A DNA stretch of 64,000 nucleotides from NCBI RefSeq assembly GCF_006716785.1, contig NZ_VFPQ01000001.1:806001-870000 (forward strand). The letters run 5' to 3'. The DNA is from Thermopolyspora flexuosa. GTDB lineage: Bacteria; Actinomycetota; Actinomycetes; Streptosporangiales; Streptosporangiaceae. Within the stretch, counting starts at the first letter, position 1, and the number at the start of each line of letters is the position of its first letter. Positions 19,931 through 61,927 of this stretch are shown one piece after another. A model generated the notes under the pieces. That model saw nothing but the letters and a program-made list of their open reading frames with translations, did no database searches and had not been told where the DNA came from. The position numbers and the translations under genes were made by a program.

Positions 19931-20470
19931 TCAGTTTTCCAGGCCGAGGATGCGCTGGATGTCCGGCAGCACCTCCAGCACGCGCTGGCGCAGCTCGGTC
20001 TCGTCGCAGCTGGCCACGGGGTGGCGTACGGCGACGAACTCGTAGCCGGAAAAGCCTTGGAGCTGGGCCATGGCGCGGCCGGAGACGAGGAAGGAGTCGG
20101 AGACGATGGCGACGGCGGGGATGCCGGCGCGTTCGAGCATGATGCCGTCGGCGACGGTGGCGGCGCTGCAGGAGCCGCAGTCGCCGACGGCGGTGATGAC
20201 CAGGTCGCATTCGGCGGTGAGCTTGTTGAGGACCTGCTCGGTCATGGGGGTGCCGAAGTAGTCTTTGGCGTATTCGCGGACCTGGCCGGTGCCGTGGCGG
20301 GCCTGGAGTTCGCGTGCCACGTGCCGCAGCAGGTTGGTGGCGTTGGGTTTGGTGTTGTCGAGCAGGCCGATGGTCAGGCCCTGCAGGGTTCCGGGCCTGG
20401 GGGCGAGGGTGGTGTCGGCGGCCTGGTCGGCGTTGCCGGTCGGGTCGAGCAGGTGTTCGAGTTCGGGCAT
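19931..20470 (-). CDS. UGSC-family protein (cysteine form, CGSC)
   Basis: A 179-residue protein of the UGSC family, in which a U/C-G-S-C motif carries selenocysteine in some members. Here Cys98-Gly99-Ser100-Cys101 lies in VITAVGDCGSCSAATVADGIML, and the first position is a TGC codon, so no Sec is needed. The N-terminal half has GLTIGLLDNTKPNATNLL, and the C-terminal half AVAIVSDSFLVSGRAMAQLQGFSGYEFVAVRHPVAS, resembling the loop-rich sheet of glycine-reductase-type or sulfur-handling proteins. The start has AGGAGG 12-13 bases upstream. It is the first gene of the operon. A redox or sulfur/selenium chemistry role is suggested by the motif only. Confidence 0.82.
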   Translation of the reverse strand: MPELEHLLDPTGNADQAADTTLAPRPGTLQGLTIGLLDNTKPNATNLLRHVARELQARHGTGQVREYAKDYFGTPMTEQVLNKLTAECDLVITAVGDCGSCSAATVADGIMLERAGIPAVAIVSDSFLVSGRAMAQLQGFSGYEFVAVRHPVASCDETELRQRVLEVLPDIQRILGLEN

Positions 20471-20542
20471 GTCCCCGGACGCCTCCTGGGTTGGGTCATG
20501 GGGGTGCTTGGTGGTCAGCTAAGCACGACCCCGGATGGATGA

Positions 20543-20562
20543 CAAGATTGTGCACAATATTG
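20543..20562. promoter_or_regulatory. operator-like near-palindrome upstream of the UGSC operon
   Basis: The 12-bp palindrome ATTGTGCACAAT at 20547-20558 is flanked by CAA and TTG, giving a 20-bp site with one mismatched pair. It lies 73-92 bases before the UGSC gene. The TTGTGCACAA core resembles GntR-type operators. No regulator gene adjoins it, so the factor is unknown. Confidence 0.55.
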
Positions 20563-20617
20563 CCAATCAGATGTGTGACCGGGGCCACGCGAAGGCCGAC
20601 GCCCCTTCACCGTGCGC

Positions 20618-21061
20618 TCAGGCTCCGGTGAGCCGCTCCAGCACGTCGAGCAGCTCGGGCGGCTCCACGTGCTCGGTGAGGGCGGCGAGCTCCGCGCGGG
20701 AGAACCAGGCGAAGCCCAGCAGGTTGCCCGTCTCCTCCGTGGTGAGCGCGGCCGGAGCGACCCGCGGCCGCTCGGCGAAACGGGCGAGGTAGAACGGCTC
20801 GGTCTTGACGTAGTGCACGCCCAGCCACATGTAGTCGCGTGGCACGGGCACCCAGCGGTCGAGCACGGCGTCGCCGGGCAGCCCGGTCTCCTCGGTGAGC
20901 TCACGGCGGGCGGCCTCGAGCGGCGTCTCGCCGGGATCCACCCCTCCACCGGGCGGCTCCCAGAACACGAGCCCGCTCACCGGGTCCCGCCACCGCAGCA
21001 GCAGCACGTGGCCCGCGTCGTCCACGCAGAGCACCCGCGCTGCGGGTCGATCGCTCGTCAC
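20618..21061 (-). CDS. Nudix hydrolase
   Basis: A 147-residue protein with a full Nudix box, GGGVDPGETPLEAARRELTEETGL (residues about 38-61). The fold opens with RVLCVDDAGHVLLLRWRDP and ends in a helical WFSRAELAALTEHVEPPELLDVLERL. It should hydrolyse a nucleoside diphosphate linked to some moiety; substrate unknown. The GTG at 21061 was chosen because the longer frame adds only arginine/glycine-rich sequence typical of non-coding GC-rich DNA. It is separated from the UGSC operon by that operon's promoter region. Confidence 0.88.
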   Translation of the reverse strand: MTSDRPAARVLCVDDAGHVLLLRWRDPVSGLVFWEPPGGGVDPGETPLEAARRELTEETGLPGDAVLDRWVPVPRDYMWLGVHYVKTEPFYLARFAERPRVAPAALTTEETGNLLGFAWFSRAELAALTEHVEPPELLDVLERLTGA

Positions 21062-21130
21062 CCTTCGATCGTGCCCTCCGCCCCGCCGTACGGTGCGGCC
21101 GACCCCTCGGTTACGGACCCCGCACACACG

Positions 21131-21232
21131 CGCGGGCCGGGGTCGCGTCGCCTGTCGTATCCGGTACCCGCGAGGACGACATGCGTCGCACGGATACGTA
21201 TTGAACGACCGAGGCGACGACCCCGGCCCGCG
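21131..21232. repeat. nested inverted repeats downstream of the ATPase-receptor gene
   Basis: An outer stem pairs 21131-21152 with 21213-21232 (20 bp with a two-base bulge, core CGGGCCGGGGTCG). Inside it CGTATCCG at 21156-21163 pairs perfectly with CGGATACG at 21191-21198. It lies 12 bases after the ATPase-receptor stop on the minus strand and may be its terminator, although the 60-base loop with its own stem is unusual. Confidence 0.6.
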
Positions 21233-21243
21233 CCGACGCCGGG

Positions 21244-24200
21244 TCAGCGGCGGAGTTTCGCGCTGTCGTACAGGCCGAGGAGTTCGGGCTCCTCGCCGGG
21301 CCGGAACCGCAGCACCGGGAGGAGCTGCGAGATCCGGTTACCGGTGGCGGAGTCGATCCGGATCTCGCCGGACGCCCCCGGCACGCTGTTCGCGGCCGAG
21401 GTGATGAGGTAGATCTGGTTGCGCACCGCGGCCGGCTCGGGCAGCTCGCCGGAGAGCGCGGCGCGCCGTACCGCGTGGGCGGCGGTGAGCACGGCGTCGT
21501 GCGCCATGATCGCCCAGCCGGTGGACAGGTCGGCGGTGGCGAAGCCGAGCCCCTGGAAGGACTGCTCGAACTTCAGGTACTGCGCCGCCGCCGGGTTCTT
21601 CGACGGGTCACGCAGCACGGACGGCTCGGCGAGCGGCACGTACAGCAGCGAGATGGGGTTGTGCGACGACCGGAGCGCGGCGATGCCCGGCGCGTTCTCC
21701 GCGGTGTCGCTCATGAGCCGGACCGCGTCGGAGCCGGTGAGGACCGTGATCCGCTCCGGGTGGCAGTTCCGGTTGCCGAGGTAGGCGAGGAACAACGGCA
21801 GGTCCTTGCCCCGCCCGGCGTACAGCACGGTGTCCGGGGCGTTCTCGCTGCACAGGTTGCCGATGATGGTCCGGAACTCGTTGGCGGGGTCCTCGCCGAA
21901 CGGGTTGTTGATCCTGCCGCCGCGTCGCCACAGGTCGGCGAAGTGCCTTTCGAACCCGCGGACCAGGGAGCGGGTGTAGAGATCGTTCTCCTGGCTGTAA
22001 CTCACCATCATCGCCCGGCGCAGGCGGCTCTTCTCCGGTACGTACCGGCCGAGCGCCGCCAGCTCCTCGTCGGTCGTCGGGCTCACCCGGGCGATGCCGT
22101 TCACCGCGTTCTTGTCGATCTCCTCGGAGGTCACGATGTCGACCACCATCGGCAGCTTGACTCCGCTCAGCCGTTCGGCCGCCCACCTCGTCTCGTCCTG
22201 GCTGAGCCCCATGCTCGCCACCGCCACGAGCCGGTCCTGCTCTTTGGTCATGTCCACGAGGTCGTCGGTCACCTTCCGCCAGTGGGCCGCAGTGCTGCTC
22301 GTGTTCGCCAGCACCATCCGGATGCGCGGCCGGTCGCCGACGAGCGCCTCCCGGTTGCTGCGGTGCTGCGCGGTCACCGCGCCCTCAAGCTGGTGAACGA
22401 CCCGCGGGTCCGGGTTGGTGAGCGGGCCCAGGAACGCGATCGTCACGTAGCTGCCCGGGCCCCCCTCGGTGGCGTACGCGTTCTCCTTGGCCAGCGTGTC
22501 GACGACGTGCCGGAATCGCGGCTCGAACGCGAAGGAGTCCGTCACCCCCACGCACTCCTCGCGGGTCTCCCCCTTGGCCACCTCGACCTCGACCTTGGGC
22601 ACGCCGGATGCGCACGTGGGAGCGAAGATCCCACAGCCGCGAATCCAGCAGATGATCAGCGGCGCCACCACTATCAGCACCAGGGCCACGATCAGCGCGA
22701 CCAGCCACCGGCGGCGTCGGCGCGGCGGCGACCACGGGTTCCGCGGGCCGCCGATGTCGCGCAGGTGGCCCTCCTCGCCCTGCACCCGGCGGAGGAACTC
22801 GGTCTTCGCCTCCATCATCGCGCCGGTTTTCGGGCACTCGATCGCCACCTTCTCGAAGGCGTCGTTGACAAGGGTGAGGAGTGCGGTCCGGTCGCCGCGG
22901 GCAAGCGGCTCGTTGGCCACCCACAGCGCGGTGAGCAGGCGTGCGACCTGTACGGTGAGCTCGTCGGTGGGGGTGACGCCGCGAGCCAGTTCCTGCGCGT
23001 GGTCCACCGGCGCCTTCTTGAACGGCTCGCGATGCGGGGCCGTCGCCACCTTCTCGAGGAGGGTGAGCCAGGCCTTGACCCCCATGCCGGGATCGCGCAG
23101 GCGCCGGGTCAGCTCGTCGACGACCTCCTCCACCTTGCCCAGGGCGAGGGCGTGGTGGAGCTCCCCGGCCTTGTTCGCGGCCCGGGAGCGCAGCAGCTCG
23201 TGCACGGCCGTCCAGCCGTTGGGCGCCTGGGGGTGCCGCCTGGCGAGGCGGTCGAGCAGCAGCCGGCGCAGCACGGGGTGCATCCTCGCCGGGCCTGCGG
23301 TGACCCCGGGAAGCCAGATCGTGGTCTCACTCAGTACCGCGGCGCCGTCCCTGCCGATCGGTCTTCCCGGGCCGACCAGCTCACCCGCCTCGCGATGGTC
23401 CCGCGCCGCCGCGCACGTGATCAGATGGTCCCGCGTCTTCGCCGGGAGGCCGTCGAGGAACATGTCGAGCAGCCGTTCCCGTACGGCCCTGCCGCCGTCG
23501 ACCCCGAAAGGCACGTGGTCGACCACCTTACGCAGGTCGACCGCGTGGTCACCCAGCCGGTCGCGCATCTCCTTGATCGCGCGGACCACCTCGGCCGTCG
23601 CCCCGGCGTGCCCCCGGGTGAACCGGTGTACGGCGGGCGCGATCTTCTCGGGGTCGCCGGCGTCGGCCTTTCTTACCATGGCCTTGACCTGGTCCACGGT
23701 GAGGTCGGTGAGCCGTACCGGGTAGCACCAGCGCCCTTTGCCGAGATAGTCGGCGACGCTCGCCTCGTCCGTCGTCGGGAACGGCTCGTCCGACGTCGCG
23801 TACGGCGCCACGAGAGGGCCCCGGCTGGTGGCCACCACCGTGATGGGGCTGTCCTCGTCAGAGTCGTGAAAGGCGTTTCTGAGCAGTTCGAGGAACGCTC
23901 TTCCGGACGGTGTGTCCGCGTTGTCGAGAAGTATCAGGCAATTGGAACCGCGGTCCCGGCCGTGGCGTTCGAAGTCGTCACGCAGGTCGGCGAGGAACGC
24001 CCGGAGCATGACCGCGTCGACCTGCCTTCCGCCCTGGTCGGCCGACTGCGCCAGGCGGTTGAGCTTGCGCAGCTCATCCAGGTAGTCCCTCGCGGGCCCG
24101 TGGTCCTGATGGGAGTACCACTTCGCGCCCTTCCCCAGGAGCGCGCCGGTTCGGATCCACCGGGATGCGACGCTCTTGACGAGCAGGTCGATGGCGGTAC

Positions 24201-24689
24201 GCAAGGCCGCGTCGCCGATGCCCGGAGTGAGCGCCTTGAGCATCTGGGCGATGGAGTCCTCGAGCGTGTGCAGGTTTCTGTGCCGCGCCAGAAGGTCGCG
24301 GATCTGGGCACGGGCCGAGTCCGGGTCGGTGTGGTCGATCTCGGCTTGCAGGACCAGGCTGCCGACGATGAAACGCGGGAAGGCGATGCGGCGGCCGTAG
24401 GCGGCGCAGTGCGCCGGCGGCCGTAGGCGGCGCAGTGCGCGTTCAGGTCCTGCACCAGGAGGCTGAGCACCTTGGGGATCGGCCATTTGTCATCGGCCGG
24501 GAAACGGAGGTGCGCGTAGGGGACGTTCTGATCGAGAACTTCCACCAGCAGCTCGAGCAGGGTCGACTTTCCGCTGCCCCGGTGCCCCACGAATATGATC
24601 ACGGGTGCGGGCTGCGGTGCGCTGCCGTCCCGGACCGAGAATCGGTGAACGAGTTCGATCGCCCTGCCCCGACCGTACGGCATTGGCAT
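21244..24689 (-). pseudogene. P-loop ATPase / TM / ligand-binding receptor fusion, frameshifted by a 26-bp duplication
   Basis: Two frames form one gene. The first gives MPMPYGRGRAIELVHRFS, Walker A VGHRGSGKSTLL (residues 34-45) and LNAHCAAYGRR. The second continues IAFPRFIVGSLVLQAEID, Walker B-like NCLILLDNAD, a helical AAA/STAND-like region, a basic stop-transfer RRRRR with a TM helix at about 652-675, and an extracellular domain of about 450 residues resembling type-I periplasmic binding proteins (YVTIAFLGPL, MVVDIVTSEEI, RAMMVSYSQENDLYTRSLVRGF). The break coincides with a perfect 26-bp tandem duplication. Removing one copy restores a continuous 1,139-residue protein exactly (3,420 bases). 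The ATG at 24689 has GGTGGGGGA before it. It probably senses an external ligand and signals inside. Confidence 0.8.
24389..24440. repeat. perfect 26-bp tandem duplication
   Basis: Bases 24389-24414 and 24415-24440 are identical (unit begins CGGCGGCCGTAGG and ends CAGTGCGC). 26 is not a multiple of three, so the second copy shifts the frame of the gene that contains it. The unit encodes AHCAAYGRR-type sequence on the minus strand. Confidence 0.97.
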
Positions 24690-25053
24690 TCCCCCACCCT
24701 GATAACAGCAAGCCGGTGCCCAGGTCTTTCGGCCGATCAAGCGCCCGATAGGCGAATTGTGGGGGAACAGGTTAGTCAAAAGCCATGGGAATGTATAGCT
24801 CTAACATTACGGGGGTCACGCGGTGAAAGTCGTAATCGGTTATCGGGGTTACACGGAGACCGTAAAGTGGTATTATGGATATTTCGGTAATGTGCAGTTT
24901 TGTTTATTTTTATCCGATATAAGCAGGTTTGGTGCAATATTAACCGAGGGCTGCGTGGGTAACCGTGCCCGGTGGCCGGATCGGCGGGAAGGGCGGCGCC
25001 GCCTTCCGGCGGGCAGCCGCCCCGGTCGAGCCGGGTACGGCACGGCCCGCGCG
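24690..25053. other. AT-rich intergenic region with likely promoter
   Basis: No credible gene. The segment from about 24780 to 24960 is far richer in A and T than the rest of the window (for example TTTTGTTTATTTTTATCC). A TATACAT on the minus strand near 24795 could be the -10 of the ATPase-receptor gene. The 3' ends of the two flanking minus-strand genes do not face it, so it is upstream DNA of the ATPase gene. Confidence 0.45.
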
Positions 25054-25518
25054 TCAGCCGTACAGGTAGACGGCCCGGCCCTGCTTGCGGGCGTCACGGG
25101 CGGCGAGCAGCCGTGGCCGGACCGGCTCGGGGAGCAGCTCGGCCGCCTGTGACCAGGGGAAGAAGCCGTACTCGTCCAGCTCCTCCTCCTGCAACGTGAC
25201 CTTCGCGTCAGGAGGGAGCGTGCCGCCGTCGAAGACGAAGGTGACGAGGCTGCGCGGACGGTTGCCGTCGGGCAGCTGCCAGTGCACGACGAGCAGCTCG
25301 CCGGGGGTCACGCGCAGGCCCAGCTCCTCGAAGACCTCGCGCTCGGCGGCCTGATGGGGAAACTCGGCGGCCTCCATCACGCCGCCGGGGATCGACCAGC
25401 CGGGGCGGTAGTTGGGCTTCACCAGCAGGACGCGGTCGTCGGCGTCGGTGAACAGCACGCTCGCCGAGGCGAAGTGGGCGGGCAGGGACGCGAACCAGGC
25501 GGCGGGATCGAGGGTCAT
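25054..25518 (-). CDS. Nudix hydrolase
   Basis: A 154-residue Nudix protein. The box is GGVMEAAEFPHQAAEREVFEELGL (about residues 46-69), preceded by SASVLFTDADDRVLLVKPNYRPGWSIP. The second half has VTFVFDGGTLPPDAKVTLQEEELDEYGFFPW, typical of the substrate-side loop in small actinobacterial Nudix enzymes. The ATG at 25518 is preferred over the in-frame GTG at 25524, though both are possible. It stands alone, on the same strand as the GH3 gene upstream of it. Substrate unknown. Confidence 0.88.
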   Translation of the reverse strand: MTLDPAAWFASLPAHFASASVLFTDADDRVLLVKPNYRPGWSIPGGVMEAAEFPHQAAEREVFEELGLRVTPGELLVVHWQLPDGNRPRSLVTFVFDGGTLPPDAKVTLQEEELDEYGFFPWSQAAELLPEPVRPRLLAARDARKQGRAVYLYG

Positions 25519-25598
25519 CGGCACAACCGTACCGCCCGGACGGCGGCCCCCGGAGGGAGCCGGGCCGCCGCCCGGGCTGCCTGTGGCGGTACGGAGGA

Positions 25599-27971
25599 TC
25601 AGGCGTTCGGGTCCGTCACCGTGGCGGTGGCGGTCATGACCCGGTCGAAGCCGACCTCACGCCGCGGACCGGTCATCGTGACCTGCAGGGTCTTGCGGAT
25701 GTCCGCGCTGGAGGCGCCGACCCGCAGCTCCACCTGGCCGGGGTCGACCTGGCGCACGCCGGCCACGCCGGTGTACGAGGTCTGGTCGGCGTGCAGGGTG
25801 ATGGTGACCTCACGGGTGGCGCCCGCCGGCAGCTCCACCCGCTGGGCGGCGACGAGCGCCTGCACCGGCCGCGCCACCTCGGCCACCGGGTCGTGCAGGT
25901 AGATCTGGACCACCTCGGAGACCGGGACGTCGGCCTCGTTGCGCAGCACCACCCGCACGTCGTACGTGCCGTCGGTCGCCCACTCGCCGGTCGGGCCGCC
26001 GGAGACCTCCACCCAGGTGGCGGGGTGGTACGACAGGCCGTGGCCGAACGGGAACAGCGGGGAGGGGTCGCTCGAGCTCACCTGGCTGCGCTGCCCCAGC
26101 GGCGCCGCGAGGTACGTCGACGGCTGCACCGGGCACTTGCCGGGGAACGAGACGGGCAGGCGGCCGGAGAAGTCGACCCGGCCCGCGAGCAGGTCGGCGA
26201 GCGCGGCCGCGCCCTCCTCGCCGGGGTAGAAGGCGCACACGGCGGCGGCGAGCCGGTCGATCTGCCGCGCCAGCTCGTACGGCCGGCCGGACATGAGCAC
26301 GAGCACCACGGGCGTGCCGGTGGCGAGCACGGCCTCCAGCAGCTCCTCCTGGCGCCCGGGCAGGCGCAGGTCGGCGACGTCGCAGCCCTCGCCCGAGGTG
26401 CCGCGGCCGAACAGCCCGGCCTCGTCCCCGAGCACGGCGAGGCAGACGTCGGCATCGGCGGCCGCCCGGGCCGCGGCCGCGATGCCCTCGTCGTCCCCGC
26501 CGACCACCGGGACGCCCTGCTCGTACCGAACGTCGTAGCCGTTGGGGTCGGCGCGCAGCGCGTCGACCACGGTGGGCACCTCGATGCCGAGCTCCACCTC
26601 GGGGTGGTGCACGCCCACGTGCAGCGGGAACGAGTAGCAGCCCATCATCGCGTTCGGGGTGTGCGCGCGCGGGCCGACCACGGCGATCCGCTGCCCGGGC
26701 CGCAGCGGCAGGCCGCCGTTGTTCGCGAGCAGCACGATGCCGCGGCGGGCGATCTCACCCGCGATCGCGCGCGCCTCGGCGTCGTCGAGCGCGATGTCCT
26801 CGAAGTTCTCGTCCGCCTTGGCGGCCTCGGCGGCCTCCCGCAGTACCGCGGGCTCGGGGTCCCAGTCGGCGTCGAGCAGGCCGAGCCGGCACTTCTGCAG
26901 CAGCACCCGGCGCAGCGCGCGGTCGATGAGGGCGATGTCGATCTCGCCCGCCTGCACGGCCTGCACGAGGTCCTTGCCGAAGCAGTTGACGGTGGGCAGC
27001 TCGACGTCGATGCCCGCCTCGAGGGCGAGCCGCGCCGCCTCGGTGGGCGAGCCCGCGACGTTGTGCAGCGTCTGCAGGAACGGGATGGAGAAGTAGTCGG
27101 CGACGACCGTGCCGGTGAAGCCGTAGGTGTCGCGCAGCAGCTCGGTGAGGAGCCGGCGGTCGGCGGCGACGGGAACGCCGTCGATGTCGGCGTAGGAGTT
27201 CATCACCGAGTCCGCCCCGGCGCGCAGCGCCATCTCGAACGGCGGCAGCAGGATGTCGGCGAGCTCCCGGGGCCCGGCCGAGACGGGGGCGAGGTTGCGC
27301 CCGGCGCGCGAGGCAGAGTAGCCGACGAAGTGCTTGAGCGTGGCGATCACGCCCGCCGACTGCACGCCGCGCACGTACGCGCTGCCGATCAGGCCGACGA
27401 GCAGCGGGTCCTCACCGATCGTCTCCTCGACCCGGCCCCAGCGCAGGTCGCGGGCGACGTCGAGCACGGGGGCGAGGCCCTGGTGCACGCCGAGGCGGCG
27501 CATGGTCGAGCCGATCTTCGCGCCCATACGCTCGATGAGGTCGGGGTCGAAGGTGGCGCCCCAGACCAGCGGGTTGGGGAAGACCGGGGCCTTCCAGGCG
27601 GCGAGCCCGGTGAGGATCTCCTCGTGCACCAGGGCGGGGATGCCCCAGCGCCCGGACTCGACGATCGACCGCTGGGCCGCGGCGAGCGATGCCGCGCCCT
27701 TCACCACCGAGACGGGCCGGGTGCCGAAGGGTCGGGTGAGCTGCCCGATGCCGTCACGCACCAGCTCTTCCCAGCTCACCGTGAGCACGCCGAACTCGTG
27801 CTGGTGGGGGGCCATCTCGCCGTCTTCGTTGTCGATGCCCACCCACACTCCGTAGAGCTGGGCGACCTTTTCGGCCACGCTCATGCGGGACATGAGCGCC
27901 TCGACGCGGGCCTCGTCCGGCACGCTCGCGTCCTTCCACACCTCCGGCGACGTGCCGGTTTCTACAGCCAT
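25599..27971 (-). CDS. GH3 beta-glucosidase/beta-xylosidase
   Basis: A 790-residue family 3 glycoside hydrolase with no signal peptide, so probably intracellular. Domain order: the TIM barrel (about 20-370) carries the nucleophile Asp292 in GFTGTVVADYFSIP and KHF in IATLKHFVGYS. The alpha/beta sandwich (about 400-620) has RGIVLLANNGGLPL and LVLMSGRPYEL. A fibronectin-III-like C-terminal domain includes PLFPFGHGLSY and TRPVQALVAAQRV-type sequence. It would release glucose or xylose from short beta-linked oligosaccharides. GGAG lies 8-11 bases before the ATG; an upstream extension of the frame is arginine-rich noise. A CelR-type operator was not found in its immediate upstream DNA. Confidence 0.92.
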   Translation of the reverse strand: MAVETGTSPEVWKDASVPDEARVEALMSRMSVAEKVAQLYGVWVGIDNEDGEMAPHQHEFGVLTVSWEELVRDGIGQLTRPFGTRPVSVVKGAASLAAAQRSIVESGRWGIPALVHEEILTGLAAWKAPVFPNPLVWGATFDPDLIERMGAKIGSTMRRLGVHQGLAPVLDVARDLRWGRVEETIGEDPLLVGLIGSAYVRGVQSAGVIATLKHFVGYSASRAGRNLAPVSAGPRELADILLPPFEMALRAGADSVMNSYADIDGVPVAADRRLLTELLRDTYGFTGTVVADYFSIPFLQTLHNVAGSPTEAARLALEAGIDVELPTVNCFGKDLVQAVQAGEIDIALIDRALRRVLLQKCRLGLLDADWDPEPAVLREAAEAAKADENFEDIALDDAEARAIAGEIARRGIVLLANNGGLPLRPGQRIAVVGPRAHTPNAMMGCYSFPLHVGVHHPEVELGIEVPTVVDALRADPNGYDVRYEQGVPVVGGDDEGIAAAARAAADADVCLAVLGDEAGLFGRGTSGEGCDVADLRLPGRQEELLEAVLATGTPVVLVLMSGRPYELARQIDRLAAAVCAFYPGEEGAAALADLLAGRVDFSGRLPVSFPGKCPVQPSTYLAAPLGQRSQVSSSDPSPLFPFGHGLSYHPATWVEVSGGPTGEWATDGTYDVRVVLRNEADVPVSEVVQIYLHDPVAEVARPVQALVAAQRVELPAGATREVTITLHADQTSYTGVAGVRQVDPGQVELRVGASSADIRKTLQVTMTGPRREVGFDRVMTATATVTDPNA

Positions 27972-28748
27972 GATGTACTCCGTTCGGTCGGTCCAGCCGT
28001 CCGCCGTCGGGCGGGCGGGCGCCGGTGGCGGGCCGGCATCACCGCGCCGCCAATGCCAGCTCCGCCGACGCCGGTACGGCGCGGCGGTGGGCCTTGACCA
28101 GCGGGAGCGCACCGGCGGCGCCCGGCGGGGTCTGCGCGGCGGGGACGGCATGCCGTCGGCGCAGGTGCCGGACGCCGACCGGCCAGGTCACGGGCCGGTA
28201 CGACGGGGCGTATTCGGAATTTGTGATCGTGTGCTGCCCGGCGCCATGCCGACCATCGCCGAGAGCCGGGCCGGGCCGGGGACGGCGGCGGGCGGCCGTG
28301 CTCGGCGAGGGTCTCGGACGCACCCGGACGCCTCGGCCGTCGGGACGGACGGTCGACGGCCGCGGAACGGTGACCGGAAGGCCGCGCCCGTGGGCTGGAC
28401 GGGGCGCGCTCGTCGCGGGCGCCGGTGACGACTCGTGGTACATCGACGCGATGCCGAAGCGGACGCGCGGGCGGCGACGGCCGGGCGGCGATGCGGGGAA
28501 TGCCGTGACCGCCGCGCGGTGGGCCACCGCGTCACGTGCGGTGACAGGGGGCGGCGGGGCCTGCGGTGACGGCGGACGCCGGGCGGGCCCGCGCGTTTCG
28601 CGGACACGACTCAACGGCCCGACCCGCTGGGCCGAGCCGATCGCTCCGGTACCGCCAAGGTGGACGACGCTCACCGCCGGGCCGTGACCTCGCGGGTTGC
28701 GGCGACCGCCCTCCGGAGGTCCTGACGAAACGTCCGGCGGTCTTCGTT

Positions 28749-28760
28749 CGAAAATTTTCG
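28749..28760. promoter_or_regulatory. CGAAAATTTTCG palindrome
   Basis: A perfect 12-bp palindrome in an AT-rich pocket. It resembles the CGAAA-N-TTTCG sites described near actinomycete xylanase and xylosidase genes. A related TTTTGAAAA lies 9-17 bases away. It would lie within the transcribed leader of a minus-strand promoter at 28794-28823. Confidence 0.45.
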
Positions 28761-28793
28761 GCATTCTTTTGAAAACTTCAGCATCGCGGGAAC

Positions 28794-28823
28794 ACCGTAG
28801 AACGGCACGTCGCCGGGCGTCAA
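28794..28823 (-). promoter_or_regulatory. possible minus-strand promoter toward the GH3 gene
   Basis: Reading the minus strand, TTGACG, an 18-base spacer and TACGGT form a plausible promoter. Transcription would run through the CGAAAATTTTCG palindrome and reach the GH3 start after roughly 800 bases. Confidence 0.35.
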
Positions 28824-28839
28824 GCGGCCAAACCCTCCG

Positions 28840-28857
28840 GTTGACAGCGATGTCATG
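28840..28857. promoter_or_regulatory. second LacI-like operator
   Basis: GTTGACAGCGATGTCATG shares the frame TTGACA-N-CG-N-TGTCA with the perfect palindrome at 1535-1552. The arms TGACA/TGTCA are inverted repeats. It sits directly upstream of the candidate minus-strand promoter and 182 bp before the DedA gene. Confidence 0.45.
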
Positions 28858-29038
28858 CCCGGCACCGGCCGGGCCGCGGATCCGAAACACACTCGCCTCC
28901 GCCGCGTGGCTTTTCGCCCGGCTCGCCCTGCGGCGGCGCCGGCCGTCCGCCGGGACGTCACGGTGTGGGGTCAGGGGGCCTTACCCGCATTGCGGAGTGC
29001 ATCCGGTTTCCGGTGTTCCCCCAGTGGAAGTTTCAGGT

Positions 29039-29728
29039 ATGGACGCCGACGTGCACGAGCCGCCGCCGGATGGCATCGAGGGCTGGGTGATCGGGCTGAT
29101 GGAGGCCCTGGGCGAGCCCGGCGCCGCCATCGCCGTCGCCTTGGAGAACCTCTTCCCGCCGATCCCCAGCGAGGTGATCCTCCCGCTCGCGGGCTTCGCC
29201 GCGAACCGGGGCCACCTCAACCTGTACGCCGCGATCGCCTGGACGACGGCCGGCTCGGTCGCCGGGGCGCTCGTGCTCTACGGCCTGGGCGCGCTGTTCG
29301 GCCGCGAGCGCCTGCTCGCCGTGGTCGAGCGCATGCCGTTGCTCGGGGCCGACGACCTGCGCAAGGCCGAGGCGTGGTTCGCCCGGTACGGCCCGGCGAG
29401 CGTGTTCTTCGGCCGCATGGTGCCGCTGATCCGCAGCGCCATCTCGGTGCCCGCCGGAATCGAGCGCATGCCGCTGCCCGTCTTCCTGGTCTTCACCACC
29501 CTGGGCAGCCTCGTCTGGAACACGCTCTTCGTCCTCGCGGGCTACCTGCTCGGCGCGAACTGGCCCCTCGTGGAGCGGTACGTCGCCCCGCTCTCCACGT
29601 TCGTCCTCGTCGCCTGCGCGACGGCGCTCACCGCCTTCGTGGCCGTACGGCTCCGCCGCCTGCGCCGCGAACGACGTGCCAGACGTGCCCGGGAGGAGGC
29701 CGAAAGCGGCCCTCGGGCACATGGCTAG
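29039..29728 (+). CDS. DedA-family membrane protein
   Basis: A 229-residue SNARE-associated/DedA protein. The signature reads ALENLFPPIPSEVILPLAGFAANRGHLN, followed by the glycine-rich helix TTAGSVAGALVLYGLGALFGRERL. The second motif is FFGRMVPLIRSAISVPAGIERMPLPVFLVFTTLGSLVWNTLFVLAGYLLG. DedA proteins take part in envelope homeostasis, and several flip polyprenyl or phospholipid carriers. A short acidic N-terminus (MDADVHEPPPDG) precedes the first helix and a basic tail ends the protein. GGAAG before the start supports the ATG at 29039. A terminator follows 50 bases after the stop. Confidence 0.92.
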   Translation: MDADVHEPPPDGIEGWVIGLMEALGEPGAAIAVALENLFPPIPSEVILPLAGFAANRGHLNLYAAIAWTTAGSVAGALVLYGLGALFGRERLLAVVERMPLLGADDLRKAEAWFARYGPASVFFGRMVPLIRSAISVPAGIERMPLPVFLVFTTLGSLVWNTLFVLAGYLLGANWPLVERYVAPLSTFVLVACATALTAFVAVRLRRLRRERRARRAREEAESGPRAHG

Positions 29729-36860: not shown

Positions 36861-37612
36861 CCACCTGCCCTGCCTGACGCGGGTGTTGCCCTCCGACCGT
36901 TGCCGATGAGAGGCCAACGGTCAACGGCTCCACCGTAGCCCACGACGTAGCTGCCTGCAGTCAATCGATTACGAACGCGGAATCGGTTCTCCGGCGACGA
37001 CCGCCCGGCGCGCGCACCACCGGCCGAAGCCTCGACCTTCCGCCTGCACCGCCCTCGTGTTTCGACCGCCGCCGATAGGCGGCCGGCGGTCAAAGCGGGA
37101 AAGTTTCATCGGCCCGGCCAATCCACGCCATCGAATTCGCACATGTGGCCGAATGCAACCGGCGATGCGTAGGGCTTCATCCCGGCCACGGCTTCGATGC
37201 CCCTTACGGGCGTTGGATCTGCGTGACGTCGGGCCGTCACCGCCTGATCCCGGATCGTGCCCTTTGTTGAGGCTACGGCCATTGCTGAAACTTTAGGAGA
37301 TCTCCCCCGAATGGGGGTACCAAGATCTGTGGTGGGTCGGCTGGATGAGCAAGATCACTTTCGCGTAAAGGTCATTGCCCGGGTTGATCGCAATGCTTAG
37401 ACTCAAGATTAAAGATCTTGATCAATGGTGCCAACCATGTCGAACGACTTCAGATGGTGCTCTTGGAGCTGTCGGGCAAAAAACCGATCGTCGCCGTATA
37501 AGTCGTTACAAATAAGTCGGTGTGGCACAACCTTATATCGGACGAACATTGTCCTTGCAGGCCATTATGTGTACGGTTGAATTGTAAGGTCAGGCGAACG
37601 CGAGGATTTCGT
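36861..37612. other. divergent intergenic region, AT-rich
   Basis: No supported gene in about 750 bases. The right half is unusually AT-rich for this genome (stretches such as CAAGATTAAAGATCTTG, an inverted repeat, and TTATATCGG). It probably holds promoters for the XRE gene and for the three-gene NB-ARC cassette. A CCCCC-GAAT-GGGGG hairpin occurs near 37305. Confidence 0.45.
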
Positions 37613-37888
37613 ATGGACACACCCCGCGCTTGGGAGGCGAACGCCTCGGCATCCTTCTTACAGCGGCTGGGTAAGTCACCCGAGGAGCTTGGTGTCACGG
37701 GAGGCCGTGACGGCTGTCCCGACATCTGGGAACTGGACAACGGCGACATCGCCGTAATCGGTCGCGACCTCACCGAGGCCTACCGATCCCGGCTGCCCTC
37801 CGGCGTGCACATCGCCGCCGACGAGAGGCTCGTGGTCATGCCGCGCCAGACGATCGTAGCGGCCAAGAGGGATATTCCCGATGCCTAA
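37613..37888 (+). CDS. small protein paired with a DUF6879 protein
   Basis: A 91-residue soluble protein: MDTPRAWEANASASFLQRLGKSPEELGVTGGRDGCPDIWELDNGDIAVIGRDLTEAYRSRLPSG, ending VMPRQTIVAAKRDIPDA. I recognise it as the small companion usually found directly before DUF6879 genes in actinomycetes; its role is unknown. GAGGA precedes the start. Its stop overlaps the next start by eight bases, so the pair is co-translated. Confidence 0.75.
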   Translation: MDTPRAWEANASASFLQRLGKSPEELGVTGGRDGCPDIWELDNGDIAVIGRDLTEAYRSRLPSGVHIAADERLVVMPRQTIVAAKRDIPDA

Positions 37889-38492
37889 GTCACCGGCGCT
37901 CGACAGGTCCCTGGGGTCACGCCTGTCGCTCGACGCCTATCGCCGGGAGTTCCGGACGCGGCAATGGGAGATCCGCGGCCAGGAGTCGTGGAAACTCGAG
38001 CGACAGCAGCATTTCAAGGAGCCGGGTTTTCCCAGTTGGGAGGCGTTCAACCGAGGCGATTGGAGTGAGGCGCTCACTCTGATCGAGGCGGAACGCGACT
38101 ATCTCTACGAGTTCTCCGCACAAGCCGCGCGTCTGGGGATCGACCTTTACCGCGTGCGTGTGGTGGAGGAGCCACTCGATCCCTACCTCCAATGGGAGCT
38201 CCATCTCCTTCGCCTACGTGAAGAATGCGGAGAGCTCATCAGAGTCGTGGGTCCGGAGGACGTCGCGCCGTACGAAAGCGCCGGACGCCTGCCGGAAGTG
38301 GTCACGCTGGGCGACTCCCTCCTTTACGAGGTGCTCTACGACGATGACGGCGTTCTTGACGGCGCCATCAGATACTCCGACCGTGAAACCGTGAACCGCT
38401 GGACCTCGTTCATACGTGATCTCTATGCAAAGGGCGAGGAGCTGCATCTGTACTTCGACCGCAAGATCGCAGCCCTGACCCCGCCGGTCTGA
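37881..38492 (+). CDS. DUF6879-family protein
   Basis: A 203-residue protein with the DUF6879 pattern: FRTRQWEIRGQESWKLERQQHFKEPGFPSWEAFNRGDWSEALTLIEAERDYL near the N-terminus, then GIDLYRVRVVEEPLDPYLQWELHLLRLREECGELIRVV and a C-terminal DSLLYEVLYDDDGVLDGAIRYSD. Function unknown; in actinobacteria these proteins often accompany HTH regulators or HATPases and are suspected to act in signalling or conflict. It overlaps the small gene upstream and is followed 28 bases later by the NB-ARC/TPR gene, so the three form one unit. Confidence 0.85.
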   Translation: MPKSPALDRSLGSRLSLDAYRREFRTRQWEIRGQESWKLERQQHFKEPGFPSWEAFNRGDWSEALTLIEAERDYLYEFSAQAARLGIDLYRVRVVEEPLDPYLQWELHLLRLREECGELIRVVGPEDVAPYESAGRLPEVVTLGDSLLYEVLYDDDGVLDGAIRYSDRETVNRWTSFIRDLYAKGEELHLYFDRKIAALTPPV

Positions 38493-61327: not shown

Positions 61328-61927
61328 ATGGGCAGTCACAGCCACGAGGTGACCGACGCGATCCTTGACACGCTCAAGCGCGCCGGCACCGGGCTCAAGG
61401 ACGTCGGCGTGCGGTTCGCCCTCGCGGGTGGCTGCGCCGCCTACGCGCGGGGCGCGGCCCCGTCACTGCACGACGTCGACTTCGTGCTGCCCGAGGACGA
61501 GGTGCCCGCGGCCCTGGAGCGGCTGCGCGAGCTCGGCTTCCGCACCGTCAAGCCGCCCGAGGACTGGCTGGTCAAGGCGTACGACGAGAGCGGCCACCTG
61601 GTCGACCTCATCTTCCGGATCGCCGAGCGGCCGATCACCACCAAGGTGATCGAGCGGGCCGAACTGCGGTCCGCGGCCGCGGTGAACCTGCCGGTGCTCG
61701 AGGCGACCGACCTGGTGGTGAGCTGGCTGCTGCCGCTGTCCGAGCACGGCTGCGACTTCGGCGCCCTGCTGCCGATGGTGCGGGCGATGCGCGAGCAGGT
61801 GGACTGGGACCGGGTGGCCGCGGTCACCGCGGGCTCGCCGTACTGTTACGCGTTCCTCACCCTGCTCGACCGCCTCGGCGTGGCGAACCCCAAACTGCCG
61901 CCGCCGTACCAGGAGGAATGGCCCTGA
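61328..61927 (+). CDS. nucleotidyltransferase-fold protein
   Basis: A 199-residue protein of the minimal-nucleotidyltransferase type. The core is FALAGGCAAYARGAAPSLHDVDFVLPEDEVPAALERLRELGF, with GG and the metal-binding DVD. Then VKAYDESGHLVDLIFRI (third acid) and LEATDLVVSWLLPLSEHGCDF. Such proteins include antibiotic nucleotidyltransferase-like and AbiEii-like members; this one lacks an obvious resistance context. GAGG lies 10 bases before the ATG. Function unknown. Confidence 0.8.
   Translation: MGSHSHEVTDAILDTLKRAGTGLKDVGVRFALAGGCAAYARGAAPSLHDVDFVLPEDEVPAALERLRELGFRTVKPPEDWLVKAYDESGHLVDLIFRIAERPITTKVIERAELRSAAAVNLPVLEATDLVVSWLLPLSEHGCDFGALLPMVRAMREQVDWDRVAAVTAGSPYCYAFLTLLDRLGVANPKLPPPYQEEWP

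Follow-up and report, generated by a model that had tools for sequence, protein, structure and literature searches.

A 26-bp tandem duplication has probably inactivated an accessory gene for a putative membrane-anchored sensor/P-loop ATPase in Thermopolyspora flexuosa

Reversible sequence duplications within capsule genes are reported for pneumococcal serotypes 3, 8 and 37 (PMC4243769, citing Waite et al. 2001, 2003). As at the locus reported below, a spontaneous short tandem duplication in a reading frame abolishes the product there, and loss of a copy could restore it; for the capsule genes reversible loss is reported, whereas here a single assembled state is known and the affected gene is an accessory actinobacterial sensor gene. 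Phase variation has been defined by a change at a single locus, reversible switching and variant numbers detectable without selection (PMC11868660). In animal cells, small tandem duplications arise through Ku80-dependent end joining of staggered breaks (PMC8355091); these are short exact doublings, mostly without microhomology at the junction, which resembles the present case, in a genome that encodes Ku. That mechanism was seen in eukaryotic cells, and its application to this bacterium is by analogy. Literature searches turned up no study surveying duplications of this kind in actinobacteria. With respect to gene content, the closest known loci are the pairs of ATPase and membrane-anchored periplasmic-binding-protein genes of related actinobacteria, for example Actinoallomurus spadix and A. 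soli, which share with our gene the same domains, their order and full-length homology. In these pairs the two genes are kept apart by a stop codon, whereas here there is one frame, broken by a duplication.

The window, a stretch of 64,000 nucleotides of the genome of T. flexuosa, a soil-type actinobacterium, carries two identical, adjacent copies of the 26-bp unit CGGCGGCCGTAGGCGGCGCAGTGCGC, for which TRF reported a period of 26, 2.0 copies and 100% identity (Table 1). The unit is 85% G+C, and the pair lacks terminal microhomology, with zero additional matching bases on either side. The window holds no other exact duplication of adjacent sequence above 12 bp, and no further site with up to two mismatches to the 26-mer was found across the 5.77-Mb genome, which makes the unit unique; the probability that two adjacent 26-mers are identical by chance is negligible. 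Sequence comparison and the uniqueness search thus agree with the preliminary description, which had noted the two identical copies side by side.

The duplication sits between the parts of a minus-strand gene that code for Walker A and Walker B. When one copy is removed, the frame from the ATG at 24689 encodes 1,139 amino acids plus a stop, that is, the 1,140 codons stated earlier. Because the extra 26 bp is not a multiple of three, the frame is shifted after about codon 97; as sequenced, the N-terminal frame stops at 23934 (251 amino acids), and the remainder is open only in a different frame, from 24489 to 21244, whose first in-frame ATG (24486) has a weak ribosome-binding site. Both frames are simultaneously open over about 555 nt around the duplication. 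An alternative start, the ATG at 24683, has a ribosome-binding site as good as that of the ATG at 24689, both candidates being preceded by the Shine-Dalgarno-like sequence GGTGGGGG. The region upstream of the gene is rich in A+T (Table 1). Elsewhere in the window, A+T content peaks at 37150-37500, where GC falls to 47%; this stretch precedes two small genes (37520-38492) that adjoin a helix-turn-helix-like gene.

Table 1. Coordinates of the features described at the locus, in positions of the window
Feature	Position	Strand	Remarks
Stretch absent from sister species	21154..25034		Flanking genes shared, with another cassette between them (sister L084:722-4544)
A+T-rich region upstream of gene	24690..24980		51% GC vs 72% for the window
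Repeat copy 1	24389..24414		Exact 26-bp direct repeat; TRF
Repeat copy 2	24415..24440		Exact 26-bp direct repeat; TRF
Disrupted gene, fused form	21244..24689	-	N-terminal P-loop ATPase, one transmembrane segment, periplasmic-binding-protein-like domain
N-terminal fragment as encoded now	23934..24689	-	ATPase residues up to the repeat plus out-of-frame tail, 251 aa
Walker A GHRGSGKST, residues 35-43	24561..24587	-	In N-terminal fragment; G35, G38 and G40 invariant
Walker B-like LILLDN, residues ~244-248	23920..23934	-	In a frame other than that of Walker A; L246, D247 and N248 invariant
C-terminal open frame	21244..24489	-	First in-frame ATG at 24486, weak ribosome-binding site
Predicted transmembrane segment LVALIVALVLIVVAPLIICW	22645..22704	-	Follows an Arg-rich stretch; relatives have a matching segment where their second gene starts
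Peripla_BP_6-like (type I periplasmic binding protein) domain	21343..22446	-	Pfam E=1.4e-5, under the curated cut-off; fold search with a low-confidence model

The product is a putative sensor, anchored in the membrane and bearing a P-loop ATPase on its cytoplasmic side, for which receptor-ATPase is a fair working name. The earlier reading as a receptor plus an ATPase holds up. Walker A and Walker B-like residues of the N-terminal part are invariant in nine aligned sequences, and the C-terminal part has one predicted transmembrane segment followed by a periplasmic-binding-protein-like domain that scores below the profile's cut-off (Peripla_BP_6, 25.4 bits with E=1.4e-5, under the curated cut-off of 31.7). 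The top PDB matches in the fold search were LivK/leucine-binding and substrate-binding proteins (E ~1e-6), obtained with a low-confidence model (pLDDT 53, TM ~0.25); the fold model of the ATPase, with a pLDDT of 39.5, was left out of the interpretation. Two relatives (L037 and L035) pass the AAA_22 cut-off, and the combination of Walker A and Walker B expected of AAA/STAND-type ATPases is present. The NACHT profile gave 13.4 bits on the window fragment against a cut-off of 26.7, and neither NACHT nor NB-ARC matched above cut-off in relatives; since NACHT falls far below its cut-off, membership in the STAND class is not claimed. With defence-system profiles, nothing beyond weak matches to the P-loop was obtained, and the sequence search found no matching solved structure.

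Among relatives, the ATPase and the transmembrane/binding-protein part are encoded by two genes, with a stop codon between them in all nine inspected at the junction, some of the pairs being in the same frame and some overlapping. The named Actinoallomurus loci likewise have two genes; the single-protein scan of named genomes, which may leave out the window's own, gave three named relatives. Since a stop codon splits the two genes in relatives, the 1,140-codon frame of the window is itself a fusion, a point that the preliminary description had missed while correctly stating that the frame is uninterrupted with one copy. The two parts are joined in one frame within 22600-22850 of the window. 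In Streptosporangium canum (L033), an HTH-type-looking segment stands in frame before the binding-protein domain, so that this receptor domain may pair with different cytoplasmic partners.

Of 199 genomes, the window's own included, 48 gave matches, many of them to the binding-protein domain only; for the ATPase alone, 42 of 343 family members match, again counting the window's own genome. The alignment at the repeat site comprised 37 distinct sequences. Each homologue covering the site has a single copy with the frame open through it, the 26-bp repeat being absent from all of them, and wherever the start is intact it lies upstream of the site, with Walker A. Homologues that all carry both copies and start downstream of them, which had been named earlier as a finding that would speak against a broken gene, are thus not what the alignment contains; compared with these intact homologues, the frame in the window is interrupted and the gene broken, as had been claimed. 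Read with a single copy, the window carries one Arg codon more than the nearest relatives (YGRRIAF vs YGRIAF). This codon lies at the edge of the duplication, in the region of 24386-24391, as a second small in-frame change there, hinting that more than one event may have occurred at this spot.

One further genome of the genus exists, that of the sister species, which is only 78% complete but covers the locus itself. It matches both flanks (20427-21153 at 91% and 25035-29693 at 88%) and has no such gene at the syntenic place, where a different cassette carries ABC-transporter genes, a histidine kinase and a response regulator. This cassette has only paralogues in the genome of the window, the longest matches being 73-74% identical. 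Judging from the two assemblies, the site is a replacement locus and the gene is accessory, or optional. Since the gene is absent from the syntenic sister locus and another cassette stands there, its loss would likely be tolerated.

We further surveyed 2.46 Mb of the genome (~43%) for exact adjacent duplications of at least 14 bp and found 33. Where such a duplication lies in a gene and one reading frame continues across it, its length is nearly always a multiple of three. Clear frame-breaking cases numbered two, the 26-bp repeat and a 23-bp unit in 2.0 copies at G000:C1:520341-520386 (L091:341-386), which interrupts a DUF6461 gene whose homologues read straight through in at least four other genomes. 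Because this gene is broken by a like event, the duplication is not specific to one locus; neither this counterpart nor the replacement locus had been noticed in the preliminary description. Both gene-breaking duplications consist of exactly two copies without terminal microhomology. A duplication at 61629 was rejected as gene-breaking, its palindromic unit containing a stop codon and its position being judged intergenic from the sequence only, and those at 743671, 1246207, 3270932 and some further sites were set aside for flanks that are not clearly coding or the same frame on both sides. At ~522.8-523.5 kb there is another DUF6461-like stretch, which is interrupted by stops.

The best explanation, to which we give a probability of roughly 0.64, is that a recent short tandem duplication disabled the gene for this membrane-anchored sensor/P-loop ATPase, a gene the strain can do without. 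Among the options offered earlier, a fresh loss-of-function mutation is the best supported, given an accessory gene, intact single-copy homologues and a second gene broken in like manner. The extra 26 bp shifts the frame, so that translation would yield a fragment of 251 amino acids that keeps the Walker A loop and loses Walker B, the membrane anchor and the receptor domain, and the downstream remainder lacks a good restart site near its beginning. As Walker A is separated from these other parts, we infer that function has been lost; the duplication is probably recent and present in the living strain. The identity of the copies fits a recent event and gives no date. With regard to its origin, the duplication could have arisen without homology, from a staggered break that was filled in and rejoined, or by slippage. 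The presence of a Ku gene makes end joining available, and the exact doubling without microhomology in both broken genes fits homology-free duplication by this presumed mechanism. A hairpin as the cause found no support, with no strong structure on either strand (z -1.9 on one and 0 on the other). Precise loss of one copy would be expected now and then, in principle, as a low-rate reversal and the simplest way back rather than as an evolved switch.

The most serious alternative, which we consider unlikely at a level that still deserves attention, is an assembly artefact in which a 26-bp overlap of contig ends was joined unmerged, or a G+C-rich spot was mis-assembled, in which case a single copy and an unbroken gene would be present in the living strain. 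The exact doubling of an 85% G+C unit with zero leftover bases is what such an error could produce, and the presence in the same assembly of a second exactly doubled, gene-breaking repeat of 23 bp is compatible with a shared assembly error; it is because such an error would explain both repeats that this alternative retains its weight. Against it, the assembly consists of three contigs and is 99.99% complete, and short repeats are collapsed by most assemblers. Moreover, neither broken gene has an orthologue found in the sister genome, as expected of real mutations that passed a filter of selection, whereas errors would strike core genes equally often; for the DUF6461 gene the missing orthologue is suggestive only, the sister genome being incomplete.

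A phase-variation switch, in which gaining and losing one 26-bp copy would toggle the receptor between on and off and the switching itself is selected, appears improbable. One of two identical neighbouring copies could in principle be removed precisely, the product is a predicted surface-exposed sensor, and the capsule duplications reported in PMC4243769 offer a precedent for reversible in-gene duplication. A change at a single locus is indeed present, with one state known; a hypermutable repeat that persists across the gene family, a criterion that we add here to the definition of PMC11868660, was not seen in the homologues covering the site. That there are two copies only, that the repeat is absent from every such homologue, and that an unrelated DUF6461 gene was struck by a like event all argue for ordinary mutation and make an evolved switch unlikely, so that the on/off option raised in the preliminary description finds no positive support. 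Finally, it is very improbable that the full product is still made by ribosomal frameshifting across the duplication, or that two halves cooperate, as might be thought from the two open frames and from the existence of ATPase and receptor as two proteins in relatives, since the break falls inside the ATPase and away from the point where ATPase and receptor naturally meet, a good start is missing near the beginning of the C-terminal frame, and at 72% GC it is normal for long open frames to overlap.

Taken alone, the 26-bp duplication answers no open question. With inactivation by a recent duplication as the preferred reading, the locus would represent a clean example of gene loss through short tandem duplication, and it brings a little-described ATPase/receptor gene pair to notice. 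The second case in the same genome would provide a small test bed for the formation of duplications in high-GC actinobacteria. As a speculation to which we attach low odds, the lineage may be prone to homology-free exact tandem duplications of ~23-26 bp, which would silence accessory genes reversibly and keep them as a recoverable reserve.
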